A DNA stretch of 22,482 bases from a virus. The stretch covers positions 1 through 22,482 of the IMG/VR virus record IMGVR_UViG_3300031851_000210; one strand, 5' to 3'. This document shows positions 1 through 22,482 of the stretch, one piece after another. The notes beneath the pieces are model-generated. The model did no database searches and was not told the DNA's origin. It saw only the letters and a list, made by a program, of their open reading frames with translations. The position numbers and the translations under genes were made by a program. The stretch's first letter is position 1; each line of letters starts with the position of its first letter.

Positions 1-2772
1 AATGTCAGGGACAATGCAAAAGCAAAACTAAACATACCAGATCACAGTTGGGTGTACATAGACAAAGAATTTTTTGATACTATCACAGATGAAACCTATG
101 ACGACAGAGCGGCATATTTAGATAATCACTTAGATCATTTTAACAAACAAGTAAACAATACCAAAGTGTATGTTATACCTTCAAGTCACTGGAGCGATGC
201 CGAAGATGCCACAAACGGATTAGAACTTATTGATACATTTGAAAAAAATAAAAACTATTATCACACTTGGCGTAAAAGTGGTTATAAAAAAATATTAAAT
301 AGGTTCAACAGAATTTATGGTTATAGTTGGAAGAATATAATTGATCCAGATAAGTTTATTCAAGGCAAAGGTGATGTATATCAAAAATTACAAGGCATTG
401 GTATCGAAATCACTCACAAAGGCGACAGTAGAAAAGGTGCACCTGGACAAGATGATTTATTAGATGCTGAAGAAACAAAAAATACCAAAAGCGGTGAACC
501 ACTTAACAGAAGCAGTGGTATTAGTTGGGAAAATATGGAAGATGATGCAGAGCAAAAACGTTTTGATGCATTTGATTGGGAACAGTATCCAGCAAAAATG
601 AAAGATGTAGTTGCTAAAGAAATGTCTAACAAAGAAAGCAGTTTAGGTAGTTTTAAAGTAGCATTAGAAAACGTTCTTAAAAAAGTACTTGATGGTGATG
701 TAGGCATAAACCAAAGTGATTTAGGAAGACCTCTAGACAGATTGGCCAGAGCGGCTGGTGTAGAAGAAATGGACGGAGACAGTTCAAACAGTATAGCAAG
801 TAAAACAAATTGGACTAACTTGTCTGACTACTTAGGAATAGAAAGAGGTGTGAACGATCAAGGTCCAAACTTACTTTTAAAAGTTTATAATCAATTTGAT
901 GGCAACCACGAATGGAGACCTGAAGAAACCGACGAGGATGGCAAAAATGTAATTGGATTAAAAAGATGGGCCGCCGCAGTTAAAGAAGCAGAAAAATATA
1001 TCAGAGACAACTACAATGTAAGTGGTGGAAACTACTTTAGAAAGAATGTAGATGGCAGTGACGGCGATGATGTAAGCAGTATGTATAGTAATAATACAAT
1101 ATCAACATCACCAGAAAATGAGTTTGATTCAGATTACGATAAAGCCAGAGCAGACCATCCAGGCTTCGATAGAATGATGCAACGTGGTATGCAGGATTAC
1201 TTAGCACGTGGCCAAGTAAATGACCTAGTAGGATTTTTAAACAATCCAAACAATGATAATGTTTTCAAATCGCAGGTTTTGAATACTATAACAAATCGAG
1301 GTGATATGCAAAACGGTCCTTTTGCAAGTTTCCAAGATGCATTAGCAGTTACTCGTAGACAAGGTAATGAAAGTGTGTTTGCTAAATTTGATAAATTGCC
1401 TTTACAGGAACAATTAAGATACTTAGAAAGAATAGATAATAATAAATTTAAGACGATACCTAATACAATTAAAGTAGAAGGTGCTGTTCCAGATAATACC
1501 AAAGTAAGAATAATAAACAAGTTATTGTCTGATCATATGCCAGCAAGTGATATTAAAAAACAAATGGATGCCTATTTTGCAATACCTAATCCTCAAATGA
1601 TAAATGACTTTAGGTCTATGAGAGTACAGGGCGGAGATGATGCATGTTTAAGAGGAGTACTTAGAAATTATGTTAAAACATCTATGCACCCTTCACTTGT
1701 TAAAAGAGTAAACTTAAATGAAGTATATACAGGTAGTGTTTCTGATAGTAAAAAAGATGTAATAGATAAAATTTCTGCATTACCAGATGACGGAGAGCAA
1801 ACAAGTAAAATAATATCATACATAGAGCAACTTTTAAATGATATGGGTGTAGGTGGAAGACTCGCAAGTATAATGCAAGGATTAGAAAATGTAGAAGATG
1901 CAACGGTTGATGCAACAATTAAAAAGATTGCAAAAATAATTGCAAGTATAGAAATGACACCTTTAGAAAGAGCTCAATTATTTGCTATGTGGCAAAAAGA
2001 TACATTAGTTGATATTAGTAATATTACTACACCAGGTGATTATGCATTTAAAGATGTATTTAAAGGTTACGGAATAGAACTGTACATGACAGAACTAGTA
2101 GATGATTTAGCAGATGTTTCAGGATACGGAATAGGAGCAGGAGAATTTTTATTTGCTGTATTAAGTAAACGCATATCAGGAATAGGTTCCGGAAAAGGTG
2201 TTGGTGATTTAATAGTAGACGGAAAGAATGTAGAAGTAAAAACAAAGACAGCCAAAAATGCTAGGTTTGTTGACTACCATGTTAAACCAGATGATAACTG
2301 GCAATCCAAAACAAAACAATTTTATAAAGAGTTTGCAGATATAGATATTGTTGCTAATTCTCCTGCAACAGGTATAAACACAGGAGATTTAATGAATTGT
2401 TTAAGAGATCCCAAGTTAATACAAGAACCTTTAAGGGCTCAAAACTTTTTAAAACATATAAAAGGGTTATTTAATTCTCACATGCCTACATTAGATGGAA
2501 GTCAATTAACACAATTAGTAACTTTATTTAATAGTAGTAATGAAGCACAATTTAAAAAGACATATGGTGCTTTAAATATTTTAAATTATATGAATGTAAA
2601 AAATGCTAAAGGTGATTTAGATGGCATTATGTTTGTAGATAAACCTACGAAAACTATGTGTTATGTAAAAACTTTAGAAGATATACTAGCAAGAGATTTA
2701 GCAGTTGGTACAATATATACAGTAACAAAAGAGAAAAGTTATCCGTATCCTCAGATAGGACTTACAAAATGA
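1..2772 (+). CDS. Large phage protein with PD-(D/E)XK-like motif (5' end missing)
   Basis: The reading frame is open from the left edge, so the gene is partial; 923 residues are visible. A GTG at 52 is the first start-like codon, but upstream codons (reading NVRDNAKAKL) continue without a stop, so the true start is probably outside. Most of the protein is hydrophilic with no signal peptide or membrane segment. Near codons 2199-2243 it reads GDLIVDGKNVEVKTKT, preceded by a GAGEFLFAVLS helix. This E...D-(hydrophobic)-ExK arrangement resembles the active-site core of restriction-endonuclease-fold proteins. Large proteins with such a motif occur in marine T4-like phages, but I do not recognise the family or its role; a virion or DNA-processing protein is possible. 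The stop overlaps the next ATG (ATGA), implying translational coupling. Confidence 0.8.
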   Translation, partial: NVRDNAKAKLNIPDHSWVYIDKEFFDTITDETYDDRAAYLDNHLDHFNKQVNNTKVYVIPSSHWSDAEDATNGLELIDTFEKNKNYYHTWRKSGYKKILNRFNRIYGYSWKNIIDPDKFIQGKGDVYQKLQGIGIEITHKGDSRKGAPGQDDLLDAEETKNTKSGEPLNRSSGISWENMEDDAEQKRFDAFDWEQYPAKMKDVVAKEMSNKESSLGSFKVALENVLKKVLDGDVGINQSDLGRPLDRLARAAGVEEMDGDSSNSIASKTNWTNLSDYLGIERGVNDQGPNLLLKVYNQFDGNHEWRPEETDEDGKNVIGLKRWAAAVKEAEKYIRDNYNVSGGNYFRKNVDGSDGDDVSSMYSNNTISTSPENEFDSDYDKARADHPGFDRMMQRGMQDYLARGQVNDLVGFLNNPNNDNVFKSQVLNTITNRGDMQNGPFASFQDALAVTRRQGNESVFAKFDKLPLQEQLRYLERIDNNKFKTIPNTIKVEGAVPDNTKVRIINKLLSDHMPASDIKKQMDAYFAIPNPQMINDFRSMRVQGGDDACLRGVLRNYVKTSMHPSLVKRVNLNEVYTGSVSDSKKDVIDKISALPDDGEQTSKIISYIEQLLNDMGVGGRLASIMQGLENVEDATVDATIKKIAKIIASIEMTPLERAQLFAMWQKDTLVDISNITTPGDYAFKDVFKGYGIELYMTELVDDLADVSGYGIGAGEFLFAVLSKRISGIGSGKGVGDLIVDGKNVEVKTKTAKNARFVDYHVKPDDNWQSKTKQFYKEFADIDIVANSPATGINTGDLMNCLRDPKLIQEPLRAQNFLKHIKGLFNSHMPTLDGSQLTQLVTLFNSSNEAQFKKTYGALNILNYMNVKNAKGDLDGIMFVDKPTKTMCYVKTLEDILARDLAVGTIYTVTKEKSYPYPQIGLTK

Positions 2773-4286
2773 GCAAATTAAAAGAACTATTTTTAAGCAA
2801 AAAAGAATTAGAGAAAAAGAAAAAAGATCTAATGGCTGACGCCGGAGGCGGTGGCGGTGCTGGTGGCGGTGGTGCAGGAGCAGGCGGTGGAGCAGGTTCA
2901 GGTGCTGGTGCTGGTTCAGGTGGTGGCGCAGGTCCTGGTAATGGTTCAGGTGGCGGTGCTCACGGAAATTCAAGTGGAGGCGGCGGGTCTGCAGGCAGTG
3001 GTGACACTGGTTCCGCTGATTCCACACCTAGTGCTCCTTCAGGGTTCCATGGGATAGGTACTTACATGCCAGGCGCTAAACCAAAAAAGAAAAAGAAAAA
3101 GAAAAAATTTAAGTTCGGTGATGGTATATATGAAGCAATACTCCAAGAAAGAAAACTAGGTGATAAGCATTATGATAGGAACGAATTACCTCAATTAAAA
3201 CAAAAACATTTAATAGATTCTCCTTTTGATTATACATTCAAAGAGATGAATTTAAGCGACATCATACCTGTACAATCACAACGTGTTAAAGGATTAGTAC
3301 AATCGTCAGAAAAACAAATAATTAATAAAACTAATAAACCTTTAATTGTAGATAATGAAGGTTACTTGGTAAATGGACATCATAGATATGACGCCGCCCA
3401 TAATTTAAAAATGGATAAAGTTGATGTTATAGAAATTAATGCAGGCATTGAGGAATTAGTTTCCGAGTTTAGTGACTTAGTTAGTAATACAAAAATAGAA
3501 GAAGGTTTACCAGGTAGTACATTATCTTCTGAAGATCCTAGATATAAAAGTCCCAAACTATACTCATACAGAGATGAACAACTACGACAACTAAACCATG
3601 TAGATGTGGTAAGAGAATTTATTGATCCAATGGCACAAACGTTTATGCTACATGGACTTAGACTGGATTACAGTTTTAATAATACACAAGAATTTAAAAA
3701 ATATAGTCCTGGATATAGAACATTAAAGAACCTTATACAGGAATATGGCTTACACAAACAAGTTAAAATTACAAAAAGTAATCCTTTTAGTACTCCTCCA
3801 GGTCAAACAGAATTAAAATTTGGTGAAGTGGATGATCAAGACAGAGAAATGAAAGTAGAAGAAAGACCTCAACTTACTTTAAATGAATTAAGAAGTGGTA
3901 CAGAACCAGGCGGTTCCTATTTTCAATATTTAGATTTAATAAGAGGATATCTTAACAGAATAGAAATTATAAATGATGAACGTTTAATCAATTTAGACTA
4001 TATAAGAAATCTAGTACCAGGAAATCCTAAAGCAGGAATGAAGATGGACACTCCCCAAAGAACTAGGTATCGTAAAATTACAAATGATATTATATTATTG
4101 GAACAAGTAGTGGAAACTAATATTCCAAAATTAATGGCAGTACTTTATGAAATTAGAACTATACTTGTAAATCGAATGAAAAACGGTGGAGTTGAAGAGC
4201 AATCTTTAGATACATTAGACATTTACTTAAAAGATATATTAGACGAGAAGATACAACGTAATCTCAAAGCCAATAAAGACAAATAG
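2769..4286 (+). CDS. ParB-like domain protein with Gly-rich and poly-Lys segments
   Basis: A 505-residue protein. The ATG at 2769 overlaps the upstream stop as ATGA; an in-frame ATG at 2658 lies deep inside the previous gene and is less likely. Order of parts: a charged helix (1-22); an almost pure Gly/Ala/Ser segment (about 25-85); a basic stretch with eight consecutive lysines (106-113); a ParB/sulfiredoxin-like domain (about 161-224) containing PLIVDNEGYLVNGHHRYDAA, where NGHHR (202-206) is the typical signature; then a mostly helical C-terminal half without a recognised domain. ParB-like domains bind nucleotides or DNA or act as nucleases, and small phage versions are common, but the exact activity here is unknown. 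The Gly-rich part probably acts as a flexible linker and the lysine run could bind nucleic acid (inference). Confidence 0.85.
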   Translation: MSKLKELFLSKKELEKKKKDLMADAGGGGGAGGGGAGAGGGAGSGAGAGSGGGAGPGNGSGGGAHGNSSGGGGSAGSGDTGSADSTPSAPSGFHGIGTYMPGAKPKKKKKKKKFKFGDGIYEAILQERKLGDKHYDRNELPQLKQKHLIDSPFDYTFKEMNLSDIIPVQSQRVKGLVQSSEKQIINKTNKPLIVDNEGYLVNGHHRYDAAHNLKMDKVDVIEINAGIEELVSEFSDLVSNTKIEEGLPGSTLSSEDPRYKSPKLYSYRDEQLRQLNHVDVVREFIDPMAQTFMLHGLRLDYSFNNTQEFKKYSPGYRTLKNLIQEYGLHKQVKITKSNPFSTPPGQTELKFGEVDDQDREMKVEERPQLTLNELRSGTEPGGSYFQYLDLIRGYLNRIEIINDERLINLDYIRNLVPGNPKAGMKMDTPQRTRYRKITNDIILLEQVVETNIPKLMAVLYEIRTILVNRMKNGGVEEQSLDTLDIYLKDILDEKIQRNLKANKDK

Positions 4287-17045: not shown

Positions 17046-18068
17046 ATGCCCAATCTCGTCTCAGTACGAGGCCCCCATGCTCGAGGCCCTATGGACAATA
17101 TTAGAGTCCAATGGAATATGGGTAACTCATGTAACTACGAATGTGAATACTGCCCTAGTATATTACACGATGGTTCCAAGCCATGGCTACCCTTAGAGTC
17201 CTATTTAACGACCATAGAGCGTCTATCACAGCATTACAACAACTTGGGTAAACGTGTGGACTTTGAATTAATAGGTGGAGAAGTTACAGTTATCCCCGGA
17301 TTTGAAGATATTATACGAAAAATAAGCGAATACAATACACATAACGTTGTCTTTACAAATGGTAGTAGAACAGTTAAATGGTGGAGTAAAGCAAAACATT
17401 ATATGGACGGTGTGGTATTAACATTTCATCCAGACTCACAAGATAAGCAACATATAATAGATGTTATAAATGAAATAAAAGATCATGTTACAATAGATAT
17501 TAACATTGCTGGTATAGGTGGCCATGTACAAGATCTAGGAGATTTTGTAGAAGAATTAAGAGTATTATTTTTAGACTGTGAACATAATAGATATGATAAT
17601 GTAAGTATATGTGTTAAAACTATGTATAAGAAGCTCTTAGGCGCTCACAGTAAGCAAGAAACATACTGGAACTATACAGATCTAGAACTAGAAGTACTAC
17701 AACGTCCTGGAATAAAACCAATGCCTCCAGTAGAACCAATAGAACATGTAGAAGAACATGAGCCACAAGAGCATGTAGAAGATACTTCCTGGATGACAGA
17801 ATTTTTATACGATGACGGAACAGCAAAGTATGTACAAAGCCATCAAATAATTAATCAACGTTTGAATGCATTCAAAGATATGAAATGCCACTTAGGATTT
17901 GAAAGTTTAAATATAGATGCTACAGGAGAGATGTATAGTAGTTGGTGTGGTGCTGTAAACTTTGGTAATATAAGCAATCCTGATTGGAGTCTACCTGCTA
18001 GTGAAGTTTCTTGTCCTTTTGAATATTGTAATAATATATCAGATATTGCTATTACTAAGACTGCTTAG
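17046..18068 (+). CDS. Radical SAM protein with C-terminal SPASM/twitch-like cysteines
   Basis: A 340-residue protein. NSCNYECEYCPS carries the CxxxCxxC motif (C29, C33, C36) that binds the [4Fe-4S] cluster cleaving S-adenosylmethionine. IGGEVTVIP (GGE at 77-79) and VVFTNGSR (102-108) are the usual SAM-contact and strand motifs of the partial TIM barrel. The C-terminal region has LNIDATGEMYSSWCG and further cysteines (C281, C301, C323, C328), as in proteins with an auxiliary SPASM/twitch cluster, many of which modify peptides or carry out sugar chemistry. A His/Glu/Pro-rich insert (PVEPIEHVEEHEPQEHVE) separates the halves. It starts 1 nt after the PAAR stop, so it is probably expressed with it. 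Its stop overlaps the converging minus-strand gene by 4 nt. The substrate is unknown. Confidence 0.85.
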   Translation: MPNLVSVRGPHARGPMDNIRVQWNMGNSCNYECEYCPSILHDGSKPWLPLESYLTTIERLSQHYNNLGKRVDFELIGGEVTVIPGFEDIIRKISEYNTHNVVFTNGSRTVKWWSKAKHYMDGVVLTFHPDSQDKQHIIDVINEIKDHVTIDINIAGIGGHVQDLGDFVEELRVLFLDCEHNRYDNVSICVKTMYKKLLGAHSKQETYWNYTDLELEVLQRPGIKPMPPVEPIEHVEEHEPQEHVEDTSWMTEFLYDDGTAKYVQSHQIINQRLNAFKDMKCHLGFESLNIDATGEMYSSWCGAVNFGNISNPDWSLPASEVSCPFEYCNNISDIAITKTA

Positions 18069-19153
18069 TTCCAATAGAACTTTTTAATATTCTTTTCTAA
18101 TGTACAATCTTCATGATTTTTACTAAAGTAAAATATATTTTTTAATAATACATTGTCCATAAATTGTGTATCTTTAACATGTTTACGGTGTCTATTATTT
18201 AAAAATCCGTTGAATGATTGTACAATATATTGTCGAGCTTTGTTATCCCAATCATTACATAAGCAATTATTAAATACTTCAAAACTTTCTCGGTTACAAA
18301 ATACATGTCCAGTAGAACTTATAAATACTTCGTTATTAAATTCTAAATCTAATTTGTAAATACTTGATTTATCTGGTACTTTAACATTAAAAATGTCCTG
18401 CCCTTGATCATTTTTTAAAAAATATCTTAAACTCATAAATCCTAATGTGGTACGATATAAATCTTTATGTTGTAAATTTAAATTACTATATGTTGCTATT
18501 GCTTCTGTAACATCATGTAAAAATTCATCTTGATACGGTAAATCATCACTTACATAAATTACATCATGTACCCATTTGCCTTTTACATTAAAAACATTTT
18601 TGACACCGTCTTCAAATGTAGTGCCTTTTGTAATTTTTATACTATTATTATTTTGCTTACATATTTTTAATAAAGGAAGTAAATCTATTAAATTATGTTG
18701 GTAACCAATAAATTCTATAATTGTTTTATTTTTTGTTTGTTTTAAAAAATTATGAATGCTATCCCAATCAATATTACTTACAACACTATTTGTATTGTTT
18801 TCTATACCGTAGGAAAAAAGATAGAAACTTACATTATTATCTAATAAATTTTGTACTAGATCTGTATTTAAATTACTACCATAAGTAAAAATCATACACT
18901 CAATATTTAATTCTTTACATAGTTTAGATAAGTTTACTATATTAGAGTACTCTAAAGAATCTCCATAAAAACTATTACAGAAAACTTTTTTAGGATTATT
19001 TTCTATAATAAATTCTTTTAGTAAATTAAAGTCACATTCCTGAATAGGATAATTACGTTTACCAATACGGCTACAAAACCATTGACCTTGGGGAGATAAA
19101 CTATTAAAAGTTTTAGTGTAAGATGTTAAATCTAAATATAATGTATCAATCAA
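18065..19153 (-). CDS. Radical-SAM-fold-like protein lacking CxxxCxxC (362 aa)
   Basis: The start is a TTG at 19153, 9 nt after the stop of the protease gene, with GAAAG right before it. The N-terminal region holds FCSRIGKRNYPIQEC (C27, C40) but no CxxxCxxC. Later motifs match radical SAM barrels: VFCNSFYGDSLEYS (57-70) in the GGE/GDP position and CMIFTYGSN (85-93) like the TNGS strand of the neighbouring radical SAM protein. Near the C-terminus, VFISSTGHVFCNRESF followed by CLCND resembles the twitch/SPASM stretch of the upstream protein. It looks like a diverged paralogue that has lost SAM cluster binding, perhaps a partner or substrate-recognition subunit (inference). The assignment to this fold is by eye. 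Confidence 0.7.
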   Translation of the reverse strand: MIDTLYLDLTSYTKTFNSLSPQGQWFCSRIGKRNYPIQECDFNLLKEFIIENNPKKVFCNSFYGDSLEYSNIVNLSKLCKELNIECMIFTYGSNLNTDLVQNLLDNNVSFYLFSYGIENNTNSVVSNIDWDSIHNFLKQTKNKTIIEFIGYQHNLIDLLPLLKICKQNNNSIKITKGTTFEDGVKNVFNVKGKWVHDVIYVSDDLPYQDEFLHDVTEAIATYSNLNLQHKDLYRTTLGFMSLRYFLKNDQGQDIFNVKVPDKSSIYKLDLEFNNEVFISSTGHVFCNRESFEVFNNCLCNDWDNKARQYIVQSFNGFLNNRHRKHVKDTQFMDNVLLKNIFYFSKNHEDCTLEKNIKKFYWN

Positions 19154-19162
19154 CTTTCAATA

Positions 19163-20752
19163 TTAAAATTTCGGTACATTAACGTTTTGGTTAGGCTGAA
19201 ACATTGGAGATAATTCATAGTTAATAGTTGTATTTAAATCATATTCTGTATTATCTGCATCATAGTAATAAGTGTTAATAGAACCTTCTAATTCACTTTC
19301 AGCAGTTTCATATAAACCTACAGTATACTCTTCAACGGAAAATATATCACCTATTTTACCTTTAACACCAAATGTATAAAATCCAGGAGCTCTATCAGCC
19401 GCAACACCAGAAGTGTCTAAAGTTAATATTCCTGTGTTTTTATCAAATGCCATCCAAGGTGATAAAGGACTAAAAGACAACACATCAACATTTGCGGCAC
19501 TTCCATTAATACCTAAATCTATAGTTGCTGTTTGTCCTCTTCTTACATTCCCCACAACACCTGAAGGTGTAGTAAATAATTGTGCAGATGCATCATCACC
19601 AGCAGAATCTAACTGTAATATAGCATAATGCATACCAGTAGTATCATGGAAACCGTGACCAGTTTGTTCTGATTCATCCATTGTTATCATGGTACTTCTT
19701 ATCTTACCTTCTGCAATTAATACTTCTTTAATTTTATTAGAATCAAATGTTGGATGTTTCTCAATAAATGCCGCAGTACCACCTGCAACTAATCCTGAGG
19801 AAAGACTTGTTCCGCTACCTGCTGAATAAACTGTATTAGAAATTGATACTGCATAACATACGTCTTGACCAATAGTTAAAATATCAACAGCGGCACCAAA
19901 GTTATTTAATGAGGTAGTAGCACTTCCGCCGTCCCATGCTGTATTTGTAAATTCTGTAATTTTATAGTTTCTGTCATGAGAACCAACAGTAATTATTTCT
20001 TCAATGCCTGCTGGTGAGAACGTATTTACATTTTCATTTTTATTACCAGCGGCCGCAACTACTACAACATTTGCCGCATTAAGTTCCATAACTTTAGAAT
20101 CTATTAAATCGTTTTGTGTAGTAATCCAAGGAGCACATAATACTTTAACATCTGTAGTGTCATTTGCATTATGATGAGCTAATATTTGACTAAATGCTGT
20201 TACAACATTACCAACTGAAGTTTCGCCTGCAACTGCATCATATAGTTTAACATTCATTAACTTGGCATCTTTTGCTGTACCAATGTTATCACCTATAATT
20301 AAAGAACCTACTGCTGTACCGTGACCTACATTATCATCGTAATCTGATCCATATGATGACCATAAATTAGTAATTGTTCCATTTGTAAATTCTTCATGAT
20401 TTGGATTAATACCGGAATCTAGTAGGTAAACAGTTTTACCATTGCCTGTATATGCTGGTACATAATCTGCATTATCTTGTACTGTACCATCTATAACATT
20501 TAATCTGTTATCAATATAGTCAAAGTGACTAGTATTTAATACTGATGCTTCTAATCCACTATTAGCATCTGTTAAAGAAGAATATTTTACACCAGACATT
20601 GCCGCTAACTGCTCAGCAGTAGCATCTATTTGGTATGTCATGTTCAAATCAAAGGTTGTGGTAACTGATGCTCCAGCATTTGTAATTGCCGTGGCCGCCG
20701 CCGTTGCATCTGCGTGGACACCTGCGTCCATTTCTACTATATAACTTGCCAT
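19163..20752 (-). CDS. Subtilisin-like serine protease (S8) with C-terminal beta domain
   Basis: A 529-residue protein with GGAG-type ribosome-binding site 10 nt before the ATG at 20752. The N-terminus MASYIVEMDAGVHADATAAA and onward to about residue 70 looks like an I9-type inhibitor propeptide. The catalytic triad is complete: D112 (YLLDSGINPNHEEF), H144 (GHGTAVGS), S315 (SAGSGTSLSSGLVAG), with oxyanion N237 (VVVAAAGNKNEN). The last 130 or so residues (LSFSPLSPWMAFDKNTGILT, TYYYDADNTEYDL) form an Ig/cadherin-like Asp-containing beta region. There is no signal peptide, so it acts in the cytoplasm or on the virion. A minus-strand late promoter lies 44 nt upstream of the start. Virion-associated maturation or surface-protein cleavage is likely (inference). 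Confidence 0.9.
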   Translation of the reverse strand: MASYIVEMDAGVHADATAAATAITNAGASVTTTFDLNMTYQIDATAEQLAAMSGVKYSSLTDANSGLEASVLNTSHFDYIDNRLNVIDGTVQDNADYVPAYTGNGKTVYLLDSGINPNHEEFTNGTITNLWSSYGSDYDDNVGHGTAVGSLIIGDNIGTAKDAKLMNVKLYDAVAGETSVGNVVTAFSQILAHHNANDTTDVKVLCAPWITTQNDLIDSKVMELNAANVVVVAAAGNKNENVNTFSPAGIEEIITVGSHDRNYKITEFTNTAWDGGSATTSLNNFGAAVDILTIGQDVCYAVSISNTVYSAGSGTSLSSGLVAGGTAAFIEKHPTFDSNKIKEVLIAEGKIRSTMITMDESEQTGHGFHDTTGMHYAILQLDSAGDDASAQLFTTPSGVVGNVRRGQTATIDLGINGSAANVDVLSFSPLSPWMAFDKNTGILTLDTSGVAADRAPGFYTFGVKGKIGDIFSVEEYTVGLYETAESELEGSINTYYYDADNTEYDLNTTINYELSPMFQPNQNVNVPKF

Positions 20753-20844: not shown

Positions 20845-21873
20845 ATGAAACATGATATAGGAGGCTTATCTTTAGACTTAGATAATTTATTATTTAAATT
20901 AAATTTAAATAATCCTGGTGATGATATAAAATTAGTAGATTTATGTATAGAAAAAATTAAAGAATATGAAAACCCTTTAGTATGTTTGAGCGGAGGATAC
21001 GATAGTCAATTTATGTGTCTACTTTTGAAACAAGCAGGCATAGAGTTTACCGCAGTAACATATGAAACTATGTGGGGTCTAAATGTTGTAAATTCTCCTG
21101 ATGCATATATGGCACAGAATTTTGCAAAGAAACATGATATACCCTTACAATTAATAAAATTAGACTTCAAAACATTTTTAGAATCAGAACAATACTTGGA
21201 ATATGCTATAAAGTATCATACAAGTAGTCCACAAATAGCATATCATTTATACTTCCTAGACCAAATAGATTATACAGATAGAAGTATAGTAATGGGAGGA
21301 GATATACCTAGATTTGCTTTGGATGAGGATACACAAGAAATAATTAGTATGATCCACAGTGACGGTGAGCTTTTTAGGACCACAATAATACCTTACAAAA
21401 TGTATGCAGAAGAAAACAATGTTAAAATGTGTAAAGATCTGCTATTTTATACCCCAGAATTATTTTATAAGTCTTTAGAAAATTTTGCAAATTTAGTAAA
21501 AAAACATAATGTTATAGGAACTATGGATGATACAACTACAGGTAATTACATAAAAGAATTATATTATAATAATATAACTGAAGAAGATTGTGAAACTAAC
21601 TTAATGTCTAATACAGGATTTGAAAATATTAAATTACATTTTATGAGCTTGTCAGGTGATTATGATGATTTTAATAACAAGTACAGAGCACCACTTATGT
21701 CTTTATTAGATAATTTTTATAAAAAAACATATGGTATAACATTTAATTATACCGGTTCTATTAGTCAAAAAATTTCAGGTTTTGATCAGATGGCTTTATT
21801 AATAGATGACTTGCAAGATTATTACGAAAATAATTCTATTAAACTTATCAAGCACTATAAATTAGAATTCTAA
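20845..21873 (+). CDS. PP-loop ATP pyrophosphatase (asparagine synthase C-domain-like)
   Basis: A 342-residue protein. LVCLSGGYDSQFMCLLL contains the SGGxDS PP-loop (S49-S54) of ATP pyrophosphatases, which adenylate a carboxyl or base and release pyrophosphate. It is followed by the second-strand region GIEFTAVTYETMWGLNVVNS and FAKKHDIPLQLIKLDF, as in asparagine synthase, QueC and related ligases. It lacks the CxxC zinc motifs of QueC and any N-terminal glutaminase domain, so it is not a full asparagine synthetase. A C-terminal part of some 150 residues (FKKTYGITFNYTGSISQ-like composition) is unassigned. AGGA lies 10 nt before the ATG. The substrate is unknown; amidation or ligation of a peptide or surface molecule is possible (inference). 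Confidence 0.8.
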   Translation: MKHDIGGLSLDLDNLLFKLNLNNPGDDIKLVDLCIEKIKEYENPLVCLSGGYDSQFMCLLLKQAGIEFTAVTYETMWGLNVVNSPDAYMAQNFAKKHDIPLQLIKLDFKTFLESEQYLEYAIKYHTSSPQIAYHLYFLDQIDYTDRSIVMGGDIPRFALDEDTQEIISMIHSDGELFRTTIIPYKMYAEENNVKMCKDLLFYTPELFYKSLENFANLVKKHNVIGTMDDTTTGNYIKELYYNNITEEDCETNLMSNTGFENIKLHFMSLSGDYDDFNNKYRAPLMSLLDNFYKKTYGITFNYTGSISQKISGFDQMALLIDDLQDYYENNSIKLIKHYKLEF

Positions 21874-21910: not shown

Positions 21911-21918
21911 TATAAATA
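21911..21918 (+). promoter_or_regulatory. T4-type late promoter, exact TATAAATA
   Basis: A perfect late octamer (within TTATATAAATAGGG) in the 89-nt gap between the PP-loop gene and the cytochrome module. Predicted +1 is near 21924, with a 39-nt leader before the ATG at 21963. It indicates that the cytochrome genes are phage late genes rather than host flanking DNA. Confidence 0.7.
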
Positions 21919-21962
21919 GGGTGTATAACATAATATAACTTAACTTTATATCAACCTCCAAC

Positions 21963-22085
21963 ATGATAAAATCGTTTTTTACATTATGGCTAGTCTGTTC
22001 CATCCAAATAGACAGCCAAAATTATGGCGCTCTTAGAAGTTTGAGGCAGATTATCGAAATGAAGATCTACCATGAGCCAACATAA
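21963..22085 (+). CDS. Small putative exported peptide (40 aa)
   Basis: The ATG at 21963 opens a frame of 40 codons beginning MIKSFFTLWLVCSIQIDSQN, with a basic residue, a hydrophobic core (FFTLWLVCSI) and a polar region, as in a Sec signal peptide, followed by NYGALRSLRQIIEMKIYHEP. There is no Shine-Dalgarno sequence; the leader sequence is ACCTCCAAC. It sits directly behind the exact late promoter and overlaps the next small gene by 14 nt. I do not recognise it. Real expression is supported by its position, but its size makes this uncertain. Confidence 0.45.
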   Translation: MIKSFFTLWLVCSIQIDSQNYGALRSLRQIIEMKIYHEPT

Positions 22086-22173
22086 AATTAATAACATAAA
22101 AGATAGACTAGAATTATTTACATTAACAGCAGTATTTGTTGTAAGCATTCTAGCACTTACACCAGGAACATAA
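22072..22173 (+). CDS. Small membrane protein (33 aa) before cytochrome c
   Basis: ATG at 22072 (GAAGA about 6 nt upstream) gives MSQHKINNIKDRLELF, followed by a single membrane segment (FTLTAVFVVSILALTPGT, residues 16-33). The layout of a short charged N-terminus and one membrane helix is like that of accessory microproteins of respiratory oxidases, and the next gene is a membrane-anchored cytochrome c starting 1 nt after its stop. The sequence is too short to assign a family. It is most likely co-translated with the cytochrome. A holin-like peptide is an alternative. Confidence 0.55.
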   Translation: MSQHKINNIKDRLELFTLTAVFVVSILALTPGT

Positions 22174-22174
22174 T

Positions 22175-22482
22175 ATGAGAGAATTAGGAATGACTTTAAT
22201 GGGCGTCTTAGCGATAGGAATTTTCTTTGTCGCAAAAGTATATCCTAATTTAGAATATACAGGAGCATCTAGCAACAGTAGTTGTACTGGACAATGTTAT
22301 GTAGATTATGTAGCACTTAACGGTACACCATCTGAGATAGAACAACGCAAACAAGCATTGGCTAACTTGGACGAGTTCAGCGACATCAGAAGTTTATGGG
22401 GCGGTTGTGCCGCATGTCATGGAGCAGAAGGACAAGGTATGGCAGTATTCCCTAAACTTGCAGGACAAAATAAAGACTACAT
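22175..22482 (+). CDS. Membrane-anchored cytochrome c (3' end missing)
   Basis: The ATG at 22175 has AGGA at 22164-22167 and follows the 33-aa gene by 1 nt; the frame runs off the right edge after 102 codons. Residues 4-23 (LGMTLMGVLAIGIFFVAKVY) form one membrane anchor. WGGCAACHGAEGQGMAVFPK contains the heme c motif CxxCH (C78, C81, H82) and the following FPKLAGQN typical of class I cytochromes c of the c4/c5/c553 or oxidase-subunit kind. The usual distal methionine ligand would lie past the edge. Between anchor and heme site is CTGQC (C37, C41), a possible disulfide or metal site. It should be exported and matured by the host's cytochrome c system and carry electrons at the inner membrane. 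Phage location is inferred from the upstream late promoter. Confidence 0.8.
   Translation, partial: MRELGMTLMGVLAIGIFFVAKVYPNLEYTGASSNSSCTGQCYVDYVALNGTPSEIEQRKQALANLDEFSDIRSLWGGCAACHGAEGQGMAVFPKLAGQNKDY

Follow-up and report, generated by a model that had tools for sequence, protein, structure and literature searches.

The cytochrome c locus

The window analyzed here is the complete stretch of 22,482 nucleotides of IMG/VR virus record IMGVR_UViG_3300031851_000210. At its right end lies a cytochrome c gene (22175..22482, + strand), open at the contig end and encoding 102 of about 147-149 residues, which was recognized by a Pfam match above the cut-off, by viral relatives (at least 390) and by alignments. 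The HMM search for cytochrome c families proposed along with the original prediction returned Cytochrom_C (PF00034; 24.0 bits, cut-off 21.3), the window copy contributing residues 77-101 alone to this domain, with most of the heme domain beyond the contig end. An SD-like AGGA is found ahead of the ATG. The translation of the ORF, together with this Pfam match, bore out the two features first noticed in the protein, namely a hydrophobic N-terminal segment (residues 4-23; 22184..22243, +), which is a predicted signal anchor and corresponds to helix 2-25 in a structural model, and the heme c attachment site CAACH (residues 78-82; 22406..22420, +). Absent from that first description were a second, invariant cysteine pair, CTGQC (residues 37-41; 22283..22297, +), and the C-terminal part, including the distal Met, which falls past the contig end in the window copy and was seen in relatives alone.

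Two tiny genes had been proposed upstream of the cytochrome gene. The second one, encoding a 33-aa single-span membrane peptide (22072..22173, +) whose stop adjoins the cytochrome start, is clearly conserved, being matched by peptides at the same place in the related loci L181, L006, L040 and L045 (shuffle p = 0.0005 versus each of the four). The first one, a 40-aa ORF (21963..22085, +) with a hydrophobic start followed by GALRxLR, is less sure: similarity to peptides of L045 and L181 was weaker (shuffle p = 0.008 and 0.09), and no clear Shine-Dalgarno sequence was found upstream of it.

Further upstream, the T4-late-type promoter octamer TATAAATA (21911..21918, +) is exact, intergenic and kept in L181, the layout of which is that of the window: a gene of the same 342-aa family, TATAAATAG in the same place, a 33-aa membrane peptide, a 42-aa peptide and the cytochrome. 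The 342-aa neighbour of the window (20845..21873, +), common to the syntenic L181 and located outside the module, is a PP-loop-like protein by a weak match below the cut-off. The exact T4 late octamer of the original prediction is present, although the number of exact octamers in the window does not exceed chance (4 versus 6.75 expected by shuffling); intergenic sequence makes up 2.2% of the bases, yet two of the four copies fall there, ahead of + strand genes. Late expression in this contig, judged from one octamer, is plausible. Among relatives, the octamer occurred at 500 bases or less from the cytochrome in 10 of 88 loci (4.3 expected), and at 1000 bases or less in 21 of 87 (8.7 expected, shuffle maximum 16), related contigs not being independent in either count. 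With such weak enrichment, the late octamer was rejected as a general feature of the cytochrome family.

Phage origin and gene neighbourhoods

The remainder of the window was phage-like, and included class I ribonucleotide reductase genes (nrdA/nrdB, Pfam above cut-off), a PHROGs exonuclease family, a PAAR-like protein and a large protein whose start resembles Mtd_N. In the product of an ORF at 2658-4286, a long stretch rich in Gly, Ala and Ser precedes a run of lysines. In addition, three genes adjoin one another at 17046-20752: the first (17046-18068, +) encodes a radical SAM protein, the second (18065-19153, -) a 362-aa protein for which no match was obtained, and the third (19163-20752, -) a subtilase. 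Together they could form a peptide- or protein-modifying cluster.

Scanning IMG/VR with the window protein retrieved 196 relatives, and with a phage-plus-bacterial profile at least 390, by which the cytochrome gene was found to be present in other marine T4-like contigs, as had been suggested for verification. The T4-type capsid gene gp23 was carried by six cytochrome contigs of 36 to 135 kb, the other contigs tested being fragments without it. One gp23 showed 65-67% identity to its counterparts in Pelagibacter phage HTVC008M, Methylophilales phage Melnitz, DLP_6 and phage C48C1; these are therefore T4-like phages for which the deposited phage collection offers no close cultured relative.

T4-type core genes flank the cytochrome on both sides in many relatives, in several arrangements. 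The gene was located directly after nrdB in 23/89 loci and directly before glutaredoxin in 26/89, with glutaredoxin within 2.5 kb in 43/89. In another arrangement, a helicase-like gene and a 155-aa gene precede the cytochrome and genes read as 55, 47 and 46 (names of this type on the contigs were inferred from the gene order of C48C1) follow it, with 57-aa and 28-aa membrane proteins before the cytochrome and a 60-aa one (TM60) after. The matching stretch of phage C48C1, annotated as helicase, hypothetical, late sigma factor, SbcD and SbcC, contains no cytochrome, which makes the module look inserted among core genes. The upstream stop was at most 4 bases from the cytochrome start in 66/89 loci, consistent with co-transcription, and small membrane proteins adjoined the gene in 44/85. 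Four loci (L082-L085; NHBP01000001.1, NYUU01000108.1, JAAXIF010000105.1 and NYUU01000003.1) were found in Planctomycetaceae, Synechococcus and Sphingobacteriales MAGs, and were read as misbinned T4-like phage contigs because of their nrdA/nrdB-cytochrome-glutaredoxin order.

Conservation and selection

From the loci listed, 89 distinct full-length phage proteins were taken, which together with 13 bacterial ones amounted to 102 distinct sequences; as sequence sets were drawn from the matches listed, the diversity among relatives is a lower bound. C37, C41, C78, C81, H82, P93, M123 and W124 were kept in 89/89 phage proteins. Both cysteines of CTGQC were also present in 13/13 bacterial proteins, and the cysteines and histidine of CxxCH in 102/102 proteins (89/89 phage and 13/13 bacterial). 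M123, the C-terminal distal Met ligand of class I cytochromes, was equally found in 89/89 phage and 13/13 bacterial proteins and, since M119 is replaced by Q in 17 of the 89 phage proteins, it is M123 that represents the conserved distal ligand. Residue 42 was Tyr in 88 phage proteins and His in one. Each protein contains one CxxCH, where cytochrome c4 is defined by two heme domains.

The N-terminus was hydrophobic in all of the 89 phage proteins but one; an AxA-like site was detected in 17, most having no AxA site. Moreover, pairwise dN/dS among phage proteins showed a median of 0.28, and of 0.17 for the closest pairs: the cytochrome gene is maintained by purifying selection.

Structure of the heme domain

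An AlphaFold model of the relative L003, built with 90 sequences, had a pLDDT of 86, with values of 90-97 across most of the heme domain, and superseded an earlier model (pLDDT 73) for which no Foldseek match was obtained at E ≤ 0.001. Residues 67-147 of the L003 model superpose on cytochromes c (Foldseek, VIA-align), including 8yts (Z 13.8, rmsd 1.7 Å, 81 residues), Vibrio c554 (Z 12.9), Pseudomonas c552 (Z 12.6) and the c4 chain of the P. aeruginosa bc1-cbb3 supercomplex 8smr (Z 11.8). Sequence profiles agreed with the structure, with c4/c554 chains on top and a c552 of another type (3m97) appearing weakly. On this model, assignment of the heme domain to class I, c4/c554/c552 type, is well supported. 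The distal methionine and the cytochrome fold, the lack of such features having been named as an argument against the original prediction, are both present, as seen in the relatives and in the L003 model. A genuine phage-encoded monoheme cytochrome c, predicted from its sequence to be exported and loaded with heme, is likewise well supported.

Genes associated with the cytochrome

An alternative oxidase (AOX; PF01786, E 1.4e-73) was encoded next to the cytochrome in some relatives and occurred on 6 of the 50 cytochrome contigs tested; in two of the loci it belongs to one run of genes with the cytochrome, with the gene orders TM133-AOX-cytochrome in L185 and TM133-cytochrome-AOX in L194. AOX was observed in the T4-like marine phage contigs L185, L194, L149, L064 and L083; the deposited phage C48C1 also encodes one (OQ984149.1 26279-26830, annotated as hypothetical), and no other phage of the collection gave a match at E ≤ 0.001.

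TM133, a small membrane protein family with no Pfam match over the cut-off, adjoins the cytochrome in L141, L160, L185, L191, L194 and L196. The phage TM133 profile matched three bacterial loci (E 5e-17 to 2e-13), and in all of them the TM133 homologue lies beside a bacterial cytochrome: in L224 it follows the cytochrome gene with an overlap, in L225 it precedes it by about 80 bases, and in L228 the two are divergent. The fact that the adjacency of cytochrome and TM133 is kept in phages and bacteria, in differing orientations, argues for a functional link. A DoxX-like membrane protein, just above the Pfam cut-off, was located immediately downstream of the cytochrome in L157, L195 and L196. In L138, L139 and L199 the gene directly upstream encodes an AhpC/TSA peroxiredoxin, which in some other contigs lies 3 kb off. 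Most cytochrome contigs carried no AOX and many no TM133; given this patchy distribution of both, no single partner is universal.

Bacterial homologues

Homologues were searched at the family, order, class and phylum levels, with thresholds and profiles that differ among searches. Within one bacterial family 27 of 137 genomes carried them, and within its order 28 of 391, with a few of the order-level matches covering mainly the heme domain. Among 369 genomes of the class, the full-length architecture was found in the reference genome itself alone, and so were homologues among 398 genomes of the phylum. Bacterial homologues appear to be confined to this one gammaproteobacterial order, which is probably the source of the phage gene; while SAR11 had been put forward for comparison, the nearest bacterial homologues found belong to this order and not to SAR11. 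The bacterial proteins (L086-L090, L224-L242) are anchored orphan cytochromes c with the same architecture throughout, 30-55% identity and TM133 in three loci, but their genes differ in being chromosomal, with a G+C content of 44-60% (32-37% in the phages) and without linkage to phage genes.

In a midpoint-rooted tree of this short protein, most phage proteins were placed on one side and the bacterial ones grouped with a few divergent phage proteins (L144, L159, L201 and L185), every bacterial group being a single clade. This pattern fits an old acquisition with possible later exchange, although the direction of transfer cannot be proven with a midpoint root and a short protein. The neighbours of the bacterial gene vary; in one group, a GMC oxidoreductase and its small subunit are nearby, suggesting a carrier for dehydrogenases, yet not as a general rule. 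AOX was found in 1/137 genomes of the cytochrome-holding family, and hence does not point to that family as the host.

Proposed role in host respiration

The gene is considered, with reasonable confidence, to be an auxiliary metabolic gene for an anchored, periplasm-facing monoheme class I cytochrome c of the c4/c554/c552 type, which would carry electrons in the respiratory chain of the host. Support of, or interference with, the host electron transport chain was the role originally suggested, and this reading is strengthened by the co-location of AOX in some relatives. The phage cytochrome would leave the cytoplasm through Sec, receive its heme from the host cytochrome maturation system, and would then pass electrons from the host quinol:cytochrome c reductase or from periplasmic dehydrogenases to a terminal oxidase, coinciding with the shutdown of host gene expression, and respiration and proton-motive force would be sustained until lysis. 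In the relatives that encode AOX, quinol would gain a second route to oxygen, implying a wider reshaping of respiration.

Electron carrying might instead serve redox balance or oxidative stress, the cytochrome acting with AOX, peroxiredoxin and glutaredoxin as an electron sink that averts over-reduction and reactive oxygen, and not proton pumping. The glutaredoxin genes within 2.5 kb, the peroxiredoxin directly upstream in three loci and the AOX in some would agree with such a role, but glutaredoxin, a cytoplasmic protein, is most simply explained by the ribonucleotide reductase encoded next to it, while peroxiredoxin and AOX occur in few loci, making this explanation unlikely. It is more doubtful still that the phage cytochrome, together with the tiny membrane proteins, interferes with respiration by competing with the host carrier, diverting electrons or uncoupling (for example, as a preparation for lysis or to keep other phages out): small membrane proteins do adjoin the gene in about half of the loci and a late-type promoter is possible in the window, but the heme ligands and fold are fully retained, as in functional carriers, and no match to a defence family was obtained in PADLOC. 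There is also a slim chance that the cytochrome works through TM133 with one particular dehydrogenase or another enzyme, and not as a general respiratory shuttle, as could be read from the conserved adjacency to TM133 and from the GMC oxidoreductase and small subunit near the bacterial gene in one group; bacterial neighbourhoods otherwise vary, however, and no dehydrogenase accompanied the phage gene in the loci read. Misassembly into host sequence, or host DNA at the contig end, which the position of the gene at the extreme end of the contig might have suggested and which had been named as a possible refutation, can be discarded in view of the hundreds of viral contigs in which T4 core genes lie on both sides, in several arrangements.

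Beyond the role of the cytochrome as a respiratory carrier, it is tentatively proposed that T4-like phages of marine heterotrophs hold a respiration-remodelling module (cytochrome c, TM133 or tiny membrane proteins and, in some, AOX or a DoxX-like protein) that would replace or re-route host aerobic electron transport. If true, this would be the respiratory counterpart of the photosynthesis genes of cyanophages. A cytochrome c that is widespread and under selection, yet without a match in 50,697 phage genomes, makes phage management of host respiration directly testable, and provides a marker for a marine phage-host system that is not in culture.

Comparison with known systems

The membrane-anchored cytochromes c_y/CycM consist of an N-terminal anchor, a linker and a class I domain, and shuttle electrons from bc1 to the oxidase. 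The phage protein is predicted to share this layout, but its heme domain ranks nearest to c4/c554 and not to the mitochondrial type. With the class I cytochromes c4/c554/c552 of Gammaproteobacteria (PDB 8yts, 2zzs, 1cno, 1etp and 8smr) it has in common the fold of the heme domain, the CxxCH and the position of the distal Met, differing from them in the extra predicted N-terminal anchor and the invariant CxxxC segment, and from c4 in having one heme domain instead of two.

Among phages, tblastn searches of the 50,697 deposited genomes with the window protein, the full-length L003, the host-like L144 and a bacterial c-type domain gave no match, and neither did the comparison of the cytochrome with PHROG families. 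In the literature on phage or viral cytochrome c, with preprints and most subscription papers outside coverage, no monoheme carrier was found. Phage soxD, encoding a protein with a cytochrome c motif, has been reported in phage genomes from metagenomes (PMC8190135), but is a subunit of a sulfur-oxidation enzyme; oxidase genes have been reported in viromes (PMC3474794, PMC3877843), and another study states that cytochromes or similar electron carriers were not observed in its phages (PMC8115048).

Cyanophages carry plastocyanin (petE) and PTOX, the latter belonging with the alternative oxidases (PMC10452541, PMC7472177). These are likewise cases of phage-borne electron transport, soluble or at the quinol level; plastocyanin, however, is a copper protein, not homologous to the cytochrome, and acts in photosynthetic hosts. 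That phages tune photosynthetic electron flow is well established, while the literature searched offered no comparable evidence of a respiratory carrier in phages of heterotrophs. What is new in the present case is a putative respiratory carrier among the electron-transport auxiliary genes of phages, with hosts that are apparently heterotrophic.
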